The notes under the pieces were generated by a model. It was not told where the DNA came from and made no database searches. It saw only the letters and a program-made list of their open reading frames with translations. Below are positions 6,698 through 44,903 of a DNA stretch of 64,000 bases, piece after piece; position 1 is the stretch's first letter, and every line of letters begins with the position of its first letter. Made by a program: the position numbers and the translations under genes. The DNA is from Oryzicola mucosus. GTDB taxonomy: Bacteria; Pseudomonadota; Alphaproteobacteria; Rhizobiales; Rhizobiaceae. The stretch spans positions 310,001-374,000 of the forward strand of contig NZ_JACVVX010000001.1 of assembly GCF_014534685.1 (NCBI RefSeq). Reading direction: 5' to 3'.

Positions 6698-6857
6698 GCG
6701 CCCCCCTCTGTCCTGCCGGACATCTCCCCCGCATGGGGGGAGATTGGATGTCGCGTCGGCTTTCGCCAATCGCCAGCGCTGCAGAACGGGCGGTGAGCCT
6801 GAAGCTGCCGATCTCCCCCCATGCGGGGGAGATGTCCGGCATGACAGAGGGGGGCGC
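6698..6857. repeat. long palindromic intergenic element (type B, copy 1)
   Basis: A 160-nt palindrome between the ATPase and permease 1 genes. The 47-nt arms (6698-6744 and 6811-6857) differ at a single position; each contains a nested stem (CTCCCCCGCATGGGGGGAG). The central part holds CTTTCGCCAATCGC. A clearly related copy lies at 40431-40590 inside the lytic transglycosylase gene. Confidence 0.92.
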
Positions 6858-11240: not shown

Positions 11241-11771
11241 CGACCGTCTCTCCTTACTCAACGCCGCCACAGCGCTCCGCGTCAATCCCGGCACTGCGGC
11301 CTCGCGCCCCACTTCAAAACCACCGCGGGCCGCAGCCCGCCGCGGTTTGCCCCTGCATGACGCCCAGAAGCCAGATTATCCCGTATGCGAAAGCGCCCCG
11401 CTCCGGCAAGGCGGCGATTGCATGAAGGTTGTCCCCAAATGGCTTAGACGAGACATCACCCAGTGATTCCAAACATTTCCCTTACATTTAAGCGCGGGTC
11501 GAGCATTGGATAGCCGAAACCTCGCAGAAAGCGAGGTTTCCAACAAGAAGCAAGACGAAAGCTGCGCCAGGTCGAGCCAGAAGGGATAGTTACCCGGCCT
11601 TGGAAAGGAAAATCGTCGACATGCTGCCTTCGGGCACAAACCTCCAAAGTCGAATACCCCCCGGCAGCCAGTGTCGATCAAGGCCGCGCCTATGTCGCTT
11701 ATCTCGACGCGCGAGAACCGGGCACGACGCATAACGGAAAAACAGCAATGCGGCCGAGGCGCCGCAAAACG
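11241..11771. other. gene-free region with two hairpins
   Basis: About 530 nt without a credible gene; the short open frames here have no codon bias or recognisable product. It holds a GC-rich imperfect hairpin at 11317-11350 and a perfect 10-bp stem with 5-nt loop at 11516-11540 (GAAACCTCGC-AGAAA-GCGAGGTTTC). Neither is followed by a clear T-run on either strand. The region ends at the 3' end of the alpha-r14 sRNA. Confidence 0.6.
11516..11540. other. perfect 10-bp hairpin in intergenic space
   Basis: GAAACCTCGC, loop AGAAA, GCGAGGTTTC. No poly-T tract follows on either strand, so it is not a standard terminator; it may belong to an untranslated RNA or be a protein site. Confidence 0.45.
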
Positions 11772-11882
11772 AAAAAGCCCGCCGCGGGAGGAGGTGCGGC
11801 GGGCTTAATTCGAAATACGCCGCGGGAGGAGGTGCAGCGCATTCTGGCGTCGGCGCGTCTGGGAGGAGGTAGACTGCCGACA
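11772..11882 (-). ncRNA. alpha-r14 family trans-acting sRNA (NfeR1-like)
   Basis: On the minus strand three consecutive hairpins each display the loop ACCTCCTCCC, an anti-Shine-Dalgarno motif: hairpin 1 closes with GTCGGC/GCCGAC and GTCT/AGAC, hairpin 2 with GCGCTGC/GCGGCGT, hairpin 3 is GCCCGCCGC-loop-GCGGCGGGC followed by TTTTT, a Rho-independent terminator. This three-loop design with CCUCCUCCC is the hallmark of the alpha-r14 sRNAs of rhizobia (Smr14C/NfeR1), which bind ribosome sites of mRNAs, many for ABC transporters. An upstream promoter with 17-nt spacing puts the 5' end near 11881, giving about 110 nt, the expected size. No ORF overlaps it meaningfully. Confidence 0.9.
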
Positions 11883-11887
11883 CGCAA

Positions 11888-12516: not shown

Positions 12517-12606
12517 TGGCGGACAGGGCGGGATTCGAACCCGCGGTACGCTCTCACGCACACACACTTTCCAGGCGTGCGCCTTAAACCACTCGGCCAC
12601 CTGTCC
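12517..12606 (-). tRNA. tRNA-Ser (anticodon GGA)
   Basis: Class II tRNA on the minus strand: acceptor GGACAGG pairs with CCTGTCC, anticodon loop CTGGAAA gives GGA, a long variable arm (GTGCGTGAGAGCGTACC region) and the T-arm GCGGGTTCGAATCCCGC follow. A genomically encoded CCA is present at 12519-12517 after the discriminator G. Reads UCC/UCU serine codons. Confidence 0.96.
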
Positions 12607-39179: not shown

Positions 39180-40628
39180 CTATTTCGTCGCGTCGACGAT
39201 GCCTTTGTCGGGGAAGCAGGTCGGCTCCTGCCCCTTGCTATGCTGCCAATCGCCGATGGAGCGGCGGGTCTTGAAGCCTGGCAGTCCGTCGGCGCCGCCG
39301 ACATCGTAGCCGGCCTTTTCAAGGCCGCGCTGCATCGCAGCTATATCCGAACGGTAGAGGCCGCCGACCTGGCCCCACTGGCCGGAAAAGCGATGATCGC
39401 CCGCTGAAATCCGATCAGCGCCATGCCCGATGAACAGCGCGTACAGGTCGCTTTCATTGTATTTCTTCAGCACGTAGAAATTCTGCGTCACGATGAAGGC
39501 AGGTCCCCTGCGGCCGGCAGGCATCAGAAGGAAACCTTCGGCAGCCAGTTCATTGCTCGGGAACGGGCGACCGCCGACCCGCTTGACGCCGAGCGACGCC
39601 CAGTCCGAAATGCGCTTGCCCTGGTCGGGGCCTTCCAAAGCGCAGGACAGGCTGGCAGGAACGGCGACCTCGAAGCCCCAGTCGCGGCCCTTGGCCCAGC
39701 CGTAATGCACCAGATAATTGGCAATGGACGCCAGGCTGTCGGGTAACGAATTCCAGATGTCGGGCCTACCGCTGCCGTCGAACGCCACCGCATGCTCAAG
39801 GAACGATGTCGGCAGGAACTGCGGCTGGCCCAACGCGCCGGCCCATGACGATTTCATCTTGTCACGGCTCGCCAACCCCTTTTGCACGATCTGCAGGGCG
39901 GCAAGCACCTCCTTGCGGAACATGTCCTTGCGGGTGGCTAAAAATGCCTTGGTGCCGAGCACCTCGAAGGCGTCATAGGGCATTTTCGCCGCACCGAAGC
40001 CGGATTCGCGGCCCCATATCGCCAGCACGACCGAACCGGGCACGCCATATCTGCGCTCGATGGCCGTCAGCGTAGCTGCATGGGTTTTCGCCCTGCTGCG
40101 TCCGCCGGCCGCGACTGCGCCGATGGTCTTTTCAGCGAAATAATTGCCCGGAGAGCCGAACTCGGCCTGATGCTGGACCTTGGGCGTGTCGGGCTTCTGA
40201 CCCGGCAGAACCAGATCCGGCAGTTTGAGGTTGGGCTTGATGCCGGCAAACGCGCTGTCGAATGTGGCGCGGGACACCCCTTGCTTCTGCGCATCCGGCC
40301 ACAGGTCGTTGTCGAGCCAGGCGCGGAACTGGTCATCGACGGGGGTGGCGCGGGAGGGGGTTGTGGAAATGACTGCGGCAAGAAGTGAGGCAAGAAAGAA
40401 CGATAGTAGTCGGATATGCCACGTTCCTTCGCGCCCCCCTCTGTCCTGCCGGACATCTTCCCCGCAAGGGGGGAGATTGGCAGCTTCGCGCTCCGCATCT
40501 CTTTTGCACCGTCTGCGATTGGCGAAAGCCGGCCCGATATCCGATCTCCCTCCTTGCGGGGGACATGTCCGGCAGGACAGAGGGGGGCAACGTAGAGCGG
40601 GAAAGCTGAAAGCAGTTGAAAATCTCAT
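39180..40628 (-). CDS. lytic murein transglycosylase (MltB-type) with palindromic repeat in its 5' coding region
   Basis: A 482-codon frame. From about residue 72 it is a normal exported transglycosylase: signal peptide HIRLLSFFLASLLAAVISTT, SLT_2 domain with the catalytic Glu in IWGRESGFGAAKMPYDAFE, GALGQPQFLPTSFLEHA, SIANYLVHYGWAKG, and a C-terminal peptidoglycan-binding domain (IAAMQRGLEKAGYDVGGADG). It cuts glycan strands to 1,6-anhydro-muropeptides. No start codon exists near the signal peptide; the first usable ATG is at 40628, upstream of the type B palindromic element (40431-40590), which is open in this frame. Either translation runs through the repeat or a rare start is used. Confidence 0.9.
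   Translation of the reverse strand: MRFSTAFSFPALRCPPLSCRTCPPQGGRSDIGPAFANRRRCKRDAEREAANLPPCGEDVRQDRGGREGTWHIRLLSFFLASLLAAVISTTPSRATPVDDQFRAWLDNDLWPDAQKQGVSRATFDSAFAGIKPNLKLPDLVLPGQKPDTPKVQHQAEFGSPGNYFAEKTIGAVAAGGRSRAKTHAATLTAIERRYGVPGSVVLAIWGRESGFGAAKMPYDAFEVLGTKAFLATRKDMFRKEVLAALQIVQKGLASRDKMKSSWAGALGQPQFLPTSFLEHAVAFDGSGRPDIWNSLPDSLASIANYLVHYGWAKGRDWGFEVAVPASLSCALEGPDQGKRISDWASLGVKRVGGRPFPSNELAAEGFLLMPAGRRGPAFIVTQNFYVLKKYNESDLYALFIGHGADRISAGDHRFSGQWGQVGGLYRSDIAAMQRGLEKAGYDVGGADGLPGFKTRRSIGDWQHSKGQEPTCFPDKGIVDATK
40431..40590. repeat. long palindromic element (type B, copy 2) inside a coding frame
   Basis: About 160 nt with 47-nt arms related at ~90% to those of 6698-6857 (GCCCCCCTCTGTCCTGCCGG and its complement at the other end, nested stem CCCCGCAAGGGGGG). 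It lies within the 5' part of the transglycosylase frame. The centre carries GCGATTGGCGAAAGCC, the complement of the core in copy 1, so the element is inverted relative to it. Confidence 0.92.
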
Positions 40629-40653: not shown

Positions 40654-41259
40654 TCAAAAAACCGTCCGCGATTTCAACGCCGCGGCCAATGTTCCATCAT
40701 CGAGATAGTCGAGCTCGCCGCCGACCGGCACGCCATGGGCGAGTCTGGTGACCTTGACGTCGAAGCCGGAAAGCTGGTCGGTCAGGTAGTGCGCGGTGGT
40801 CTGGCCCTCGACCGTGGCGTTGACGGCCAGGATGATCTCCCTGATCCCGCCTTCGGCCACGCGCGTCACCAGTTGCTTGATGTTGAGCTGGTCGGGGCCA
40901 ATGCCGTCGAGCGGCGACAGCGTGCCGCCAAGTACATGAAACTTGGCGTTCATCGCGGTCGCACGCTCCAGGGCCCACAGGTCGGAGACATCCTCGACGA
41001 CGATGATGGTGCCGGAATCGCGGCGGGCATCGGTGCAGATCATGCAGGGATCGGCCGTGTCGACATTGCCGCAGGTCGAGCATACCCGCACCTTGTCGAC
41101 TGCCTCGCCCATGGCGGCGGCCAGCGGCGCCAGAAGCTGCTCCTTCTTCTTGATCAGGTGCAGCGCCGCGCGCCGGGCCGAACGCGGCCCAAGGCCCGGA
41201 ACCTTGGACAGGAGCTGGATCAGGCGTTCGATTTCCGGGCCGGCGATTCGTTTGGACAT
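40654..41259 (-). CDS. recR: recombination mediator RecR
   Basis: A 201-residue DNA-repair protein of the RecFOR pathway. Helix-hairpin-helix [20 protein letters not shown], zinc finger Cys60/63/72/75 ([16 protein letters not shown]), then a Toprim domain ([34 protein letters not shown]). Part of the conserved dnaX-ybaB-recR order, but with a SleB-type gene between ybaB and recR. The transglycosylase start follows 25 nt downstream. Confidence 0.97.
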
Positions 41260-44672: not shown

Positions 44673-44804
44673 TCGTCGTTCCGCTCCGGCGTCATCCCGT
44701 TGGGCCTTTCGGCCCGCTCGACCGGCCTCGTTCGGGCCGATTCCGCAAAACAAGTTTCGCCCGCGCCGCAATGCGTCGTCAACGTCGCGAAGAGGGGCAG
44801 AAGG

Positions 44805-44903
44805 CGGGAGGCTGGAACAATGACCCGTTCCGGGCTCGTTAGGGCTGCTTCCTTCCGGACCTGACCCGGTTGGCGAGTGGATCGTCCACCACCAACCTCC
44901 CAA
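44805..44903 (-). ncRNA. ffs: small signal recognition particle RNA (4.5S RNA)
   Basis: On the minus strand the universally conserved SRP tip GGTCAGGTCCGGAAGGAAGC is followed by AGCC, and the ends GGGAGG and CCTCCC pair to close the hairpin, giving about 98 nt. It binds Ffh to target membrane proteins. Upstream of dnaX as in many alphaproteobacteria. Confidence 0.97.

Follow-up and report, generated by a model that had tools for sequence, protein, structure and literature searches.

A dispersed palindromic repeat sits inside the coding region of a lytic murein transglycosylase in Oryzicola mucosus, between the ancestral start codon and the signal peptide. The locus was analyzed within a stretch of 64,000 nucleotides, referred to here as the window. 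The best explanation, and a probable one, is that the palindrome was inserted in frame after the true start and that translation through the repeat is tolerated.

The transglycosylase gene occupies positions 39180..40628 of the minus strand. The protein is of the SLT_2/MltB_2 type with a PG_binding_1 domain, as a Pfam search matched SLT_2 (PF13406, E 8.9e-90) and PG_binding_1 (PF01471), and the NCBIfam model TIGR02283 (MltB_2) scored 350.3 bits against a cut-off of 248.45. The gene upstream, recR (40654..41259, minus strand), terminates with a stop codon at 40654-40656 and served as the anchor for the comparison of orthologs. From the ATG at 40626..40628, located 25 nt past the recR stop on the minus strand, the transglycosylase frame is open for 482 codons, giving a protein of 482 amino acids if the start is at 40628. 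No ATG, GTG or TTG occurs in this frame between that ATG and the mature part of the protein. The initial annotation, which had found none of these codons at a useful distance ahead of the signal peptide, was correct on this point. The putative signal peptide region, RLLSFFLASLLAAVISTTPSRA, was judged by eye to lie at 40347..40412 of the minus strand, and the pre-signal extension amounts to 72 residues ahead of the Arg that opens the hydrophobic stretch. An AlphaFold2 model of the long form returned a mean pLDDT of 46 and was given no weight. The nearest genome among those compared is that of Corticibacterium sp. UT-5YL-CI-8 (L017, the sister), which is placed by taxonomy in Tianweitania, Phyllobacteriaceae, and its enzyme is 92% identical.

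The palindrome is positioned between the ATG at 40628 and the signal peptide of the transglycosylase. According to the arm pattern and the reading of the frame, its core runs for 150 bp from outer arm to outer arm (40436..40585) and is free of stop codons in the gene frame. Together with the conserved outer ends, the repeat covers about 178 bp (about 40422..40599), limits that were drawn from the consensus of other copies. The frame is open across the element as initially described, although the element is slightly larger than the 160 nt first assigned to it. The arms are inverted with one mismatch to the pattern in each, and thus form terminal inverted repeats of the kind used to define MITEs. 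As RNA, the repeat is predicted to form a hairpin of -123 kcal/mol (z -9.3) just after the start of the transglycosylase.

This repeat belongs to a multicopy dispersed family. There are 53 matching rows in its own genome, corresponding to fewer places since both strands match a palindrome, and between 61 and 92 matching rows per genome in each of 10 related genomes. A second full copy of the same palindrome is present in the window at 6701-6854. Three Rfam matches were obtained in the window (the ar14 small RNA at 11770-11887, a tRNA at 12520-12606 and the small SRP RNA at 44804-44900), none of them at the site of the palindrome and transglycosylase. Relatives of the window repeat also reside on plasmids of Sinorhizobium (65 records), Rhizobium (37), Shinella (10) and others, including Phyllobacterium. 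Among the plasmid matches listed, none of the 40 places had an annotated gene over the copy, with two of those records lacking annotation, and one copy on pSymB of S. meliloti is intergenic.

The recR-transglycosylase site was compared in 80 named contigs, in 137 of 146 genomes and in the window; the loci left out of the 146 genomes were at contig edges, weak or already included. This resulted in 218 loci, of which 156 were distinct by identical sequence. Using the arm pattern, both arms of the repeat were recognized at 69 of the 156 loci, one arm at 6 and none at 81, although three loci counted among the armless (L036, L067 and L210) still hold a remnant of the repeat in translation. The repeat-less orthologs start with ATG, or sometimes GTG, mostly at +13 to +30 after recR, and the same interval is found in the repeat-bearing ones. 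When 18 long forms were aligned, the repeat took the form of an insertion in the n-region. Because the start ATG occupies this same position in orthologs without the repeat, the repeat is inside the coding region and not upstream of the gene. The initial annotation had suggested comparing orthologs without the element and had placed the repeat in the coding frame of the transglycosylase, and the open frame from ATG 40628 to the stop agrees with this placement.

The occupancy of this site varies among relatives. On a recR/enzyme tree of 155 rows, at least 30 presence changes and at least 18 orientation changes are needed, counts that are possibly inflated by recombination and tree error. With at least 18 orientation changes among the repeat-bearing loci, the distribution is not the result of a single inherited event. 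A 15-nt in-frame addition was seen within a repeat arm in four loci; it is located in the left arm in L076, L080 and L202, and in the right arm in L189, where it is seemingly the reverse complement. The repeat of L037 is split by over 1 kb of additional DNA between recR and the transglycosylase, and only the right arm is still recognized.

The phase in which the repeat is read is strongly restricted. Across the 69 loci, phase 0 of the right arm (which then reads GEMSGRTEGG) occurs in 65, phase 2 in four (the window, L020, L026 and L082) and phase 1 in none. The gene frame passes through the repeat without a stop in 64 of 66 copies longer than 100 bp, the exceptions being L082 and L186. As controls, 79 copies of the repeat located elsewhere were read in the matching phase and orientation, once the five belonging to the transglycosylase site, those without both arms and any duplicates had been removed. 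Phase-0 copies in orientation 1 were stop-free in 33/33 cases vs 62/79 controls (Fisher p 0.0015) and those in orientation 2 in 28/29 vs 41/79 (Fisher p 4e-6), with both tests treating relatives as independent. Taken by itself, the open frame of the window is unremarkable: among same-orientation copies elsewhere, 41 of 79 are likewise open in that phase. The window copy also belongs to the minority phase (4/69), where openness alone is statistically unnotable. The significance of the open frame thus comes from the orthologs and not from the window as a single case. Nine internal-deletion derivatives that have lost the repeat's own ATG keep the frame from an upstream start (L036, L067, L090, L201, L210, L230, L253, L255 and L256), which in L230 is GTG or TTG. 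A frame-safe design of the repeat itself was considered and rejected, as copies elsewhere are only slightly more open than copies with shuffled middles (279 vs 249.8 of 474).

An in-frame start is present to the left of the repeat in 65 of the 69 loci (ATG in 56, GTG in 8 and TTG in 1). The mean energy of the Shine–Dalgarno duplex at this ancestral start is -10.7 kcal/mol in loci with the repeat (n=60) and -9.2 kcal/mol in those without (n=78); at the ancestral position, the value used was the best among several starts, a choice that favors this position somewhat. At the repeat's own ATG, the mean is -5.5 kcal/mol (n=55), and random sites in recR give -4.6 kcal/mol (n=465). Individual loci depart from these means, with a middling value at the window ATG 40628 (-6.8 kcal/mol) and a poor one at the ATG of L026 (-2.0 kcal/mol). 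Taken together, the open frame, the in-frame deletion derivatives and the retained Shine–Dalgarno sequence support translation through the repeat. It is these observations, along with the comparison of orthologs, that favor the extension before the signal peptide, put initially at about 70 residues, as a probable part of the precursor.

Selection acts very differently on the enzyme and on the inserted peptide. In the mature enzyme, differences from the sister at codon positions 1, 2 and 3 stand at 10:7:80, with a dN of 0.021, a dS of 0.358 and a dN/dS of about 0.06. Within the repeat at this locus, there is no excess at third positions, with counts of 141:145:146 over the 24 nearest pairs. Purifying selection on the repeat-encoded peptide was rejected on these flat counts, the corresponding CobN count having yielded no usable pairs. 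At this locus, the frame is kept and the peptide sequence is not conserved.

The proposed sequence of events is as follows. A dispersed Rhizobiales palindromic repeat would insert into the coding region of an exported transglycosylase, past the initiation codon but ahead of the hydrophobic core of its signal peptide. The repeat is GC-rich, stop-poor and most often 150 bp between the arms, such that insertion would often leave one frame open. Translation would begin at the ancestral ATG after recR and run through the repeat, and the signal peptide of the precursor would gain an n-region of ~72 residues, most of it repeat-encoded. This additional peptide would be tolerated with its amino acids not shaped by selection, a neutrality that we infer. 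The signal peptide would presumably still export the enzyme, and the extension would be cut off with it, if the long form is made and exported as supposed. Several observations count against this explanation: the flat codon-position counts, the middling Shine–Dalgarno sequence of the window, its minority phase, the loci without an upstream start and the -123 kcal/mol hairpin.

For this species, the main rival to initiation at ATG 40628 is an AUC start after the motif AAGGA, although on balance it is unlikely. Ribosomes would begin at the AUC at 40415-40413 or at the ACG at 40424-40422, both in frame on the minus strand, with AAGGA from the end of the repeat acting as the Shine–Dalgarno sequence; an ordinary signal peptide would result and the long frame would be a relic. 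The AAGGA lies 9 nt before the ATC (40413..40415), its duplex energy is -8.8 kcal/mol vs -6.8 at ATG 40628, and the Arg and hydrophobic stretch follow immediately after the AUC codon. The ACG (40422..40424) directly follows the AAGGA at a spacing unsuited to a start. The initial annotation had raised a rare codon such as ACG right before the signal peptide, and the AUC is a candidate non-canonical start of this kind, giving a short form. In the comparable place, L020, of the same phase, has an in-frame TTG preceded by GGAG, and L026 has an ATG. However, AUC and ACG are very poor start codons in bacteria, and the window, L020 and L026 have all retained the ancestral ATG in frame. A start within the repeat itself has also been weighed, whereby its own ATG, GGGGGAGATGTCC in the right arm (MSGRTEGG...), is portable and serves the signal peptide behind it. 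This ATG is in frame in 60 of the 65 phase-0 loci. No upstream in-frame start exists in L082, L145, L186 or L260, L035 has only a TTG, and L035, L037 and L048 have a broken frame upstream; because the upstream frame or start has been lost, these seven loci probably use a start within or downstream of the repeat. L145, L186 and L260, together with the three broken frames, thereby speak for a portable start. In the window, however, the repeat's ATG is out of frame. Its Shine–Dalgarno energy is near random (-5.5 vs -4.6), and a portable start would leave unexplained both the nine ATG-less derivatives and the region upstream of the inner ATG, which is open in 61 of 62 phase-0 copies. On the last three points the portable start was rejected as the main mode, and it is very improbable. 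A further candidate route, weighed on the sequence, would be a -1 slip on the G run after initiation at the ATG of the arm.

The remaining two alternatives are the most remote of all, each to an equal degree. One, raised in the initial annotation, is that the gene lost its start through the insertion and fell silent, which would fit with there being no ATG, GTG or TTG between the repeat and the signal peptide. The start of repeat-less orthologs is nonetheless the ATG before the repeat, and the catalytic domain is matched over its full length. The dN/dS of the mature part indicates that the gene is not silenced and so contradicts the earlier suggestion. The other is an assembly error or chance, in which the true arrangement of the species is phase 0 and the frame is displaced by an indel within the G run. 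The ATG of the window arm is one frame off and the sister L017 is in phase 0, as such an error would predict; against this, the G run has the usual length of the family and L020, L026 and L082 are likewise in phase 2. In-frame insertion with tolerated translation from ATG 40628 therefore stays the preferred explanation.

Other genes were searched for the same habit by scanning the flanks of the control copies and then protein families. In-frame copies of the repeat lie within CobN (two in L114, one in L312) and within a NasC-like reductase (L305). The two copies in the Aminobacter niigataensis CobN (L114:3-2384) are separate from each other. Across 31 CobN loci, the repeat is present with the frame kept and open in 29, in a biased sample where 30 of the 31 are the best matches to a repeat-holding query. 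The CobN of genome G083 gave a split match with a stop. In L404 and L405, a different repeat (PLPLEGRVRPQAGGG in translation) lies in frame at a CobN site used elsewhere by the present repeat. The IleS of the window genome (L338:418-3051, C23), a single copy that was the only match above the family cut-off, carries an in-frame insertion of ~41 residues that opens with the repeat-derived PISPHAGEMSAQPTEGG. This insertion is missing from all 30 aligned Mesorhizobium orthologs; the sister genome has a longer version with a second visible arm. The IleS repeat is a relative with a different arm, of another type than that of the transglycosylase. A large reading frame in L411 (1308 aa in the search row) holds the IleS-type repeat in frame with both arms visible. 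The repeat was also found near a signal-peptide-like stretch in the proteins of L275, L272, L297 and L321, plus L332 of the window genome. L332:636-1793 and L297:550-1356 are, by eye, apparent orthologs from two genera with the repeat just before this stretch.

In the interior of CobN, the NasC-like reductase and IleS, the in-frame copies are placed where an alternative start cannot help. Including the related repeat of IleS, the family is thus a multicopy dispersed palindrome found in frame within the genes of conserved proteins (the transglycosylase, CobN, the NasC-like reductase and IleS). The initial annotation had considered the protein-coding use of such repeats to be rare. This holds in general, but not within this group, where CobN and other genes contain in-frame copies of the family.

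A broader and rather doubtful proposal is that the position ahead of the signal peptide serves again and again for landing or exchange of the repeat. In dozens of Phyllobacteriaceae species, the palindrome would have come and gone, turned around and been shortened many times without loss of the frame, and synthesis or export of the wall enzyme would be tuned by the extended peptide ahead of the signal sequence and by the strong mRNA hairpin behind the start codon. These loci provide a free-living, culturable group with the same habit in several genes. A natural experiment at one site (with, without, in both orientations and trimmed) makes the tolerance of selfish DNA inside proteins directly testable. 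The findings also bear on the length of n-region that is compatible with a Sec signal peptide, and on gene annotation, as the start calls of many Mesorhizobium transglycosylases depend on the repeat question.

Rickettsia and Wolbachia are the best-known sources of protein-coding palindromes. The dispersed palindromic repeats of rhizobia include the Rhizobium-specific intergenic mosaic elements (RIME). The present family resembles RIME in that relatives of the window repeat occur on plasmids of Sinorhizobium, Rhizobium, Shinella and Phyllobacterium. It differs in that RIME, as cited in PMC3233446, are intergenic by name. Other REPs have been described in Bradyrhizobium, as given in the accessible text of PMC5082802. 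Titles and abstract openings in the literature searched yielded no protein-coding palindromes in Mesorhizobium, Aminobacter or Corticibacterium, which is weak evidence of novelty with subscription literature mostly outside the scope.

Rickettsia palindromic elements (RPEs) have been described in frame inside genes (reviewed in PMC10969869, accessible part). The available portion of a second review, PMC2229807, reports that an RPE-carrying Gmk is active, that other repeats (ERIC, YPAL and Correia) are fused to reading frames, and that predicted signal peptides partly formed by a repeat are known. REPs near N termini have been noted as well, with the warning, in the accessible text of PMC3733652, that N-terminal cases may be misannotated starts. 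The repeat described here is like ERIC, YPAL, Correia and REP, as far as these accessible texts describe them, in forming in-frame fusions, including near N termini. In contrast to the N-terminal REP cases of PMC3733652, as its accessible text presents them, the start here was checked by orthologs, Shine–Dalgarno sequences and deletion derivatives. Compared with MltB-type transglycosylases (TIGR02283), the domain content is the same and the score is over the cut-off, and the difference is the N-terminal extension before the signal peptide. The closest likeness in the accessible descriptions is to the RPEs and their Wolbachia equivalents, which are dispersed palindromes of similar size, in frame in unrelated conserved genes and translated. 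This likeness is one of description and function. The hosts here are Phyllobacteriaceae, and the best-sampled site, ahead of a signal peptide, holds the repeat in either orientation across many species. By analogy with Rickettsia, these repeats would represent a new host group and a new type of site for a known phenomenon, that of protein-coding palindromes.
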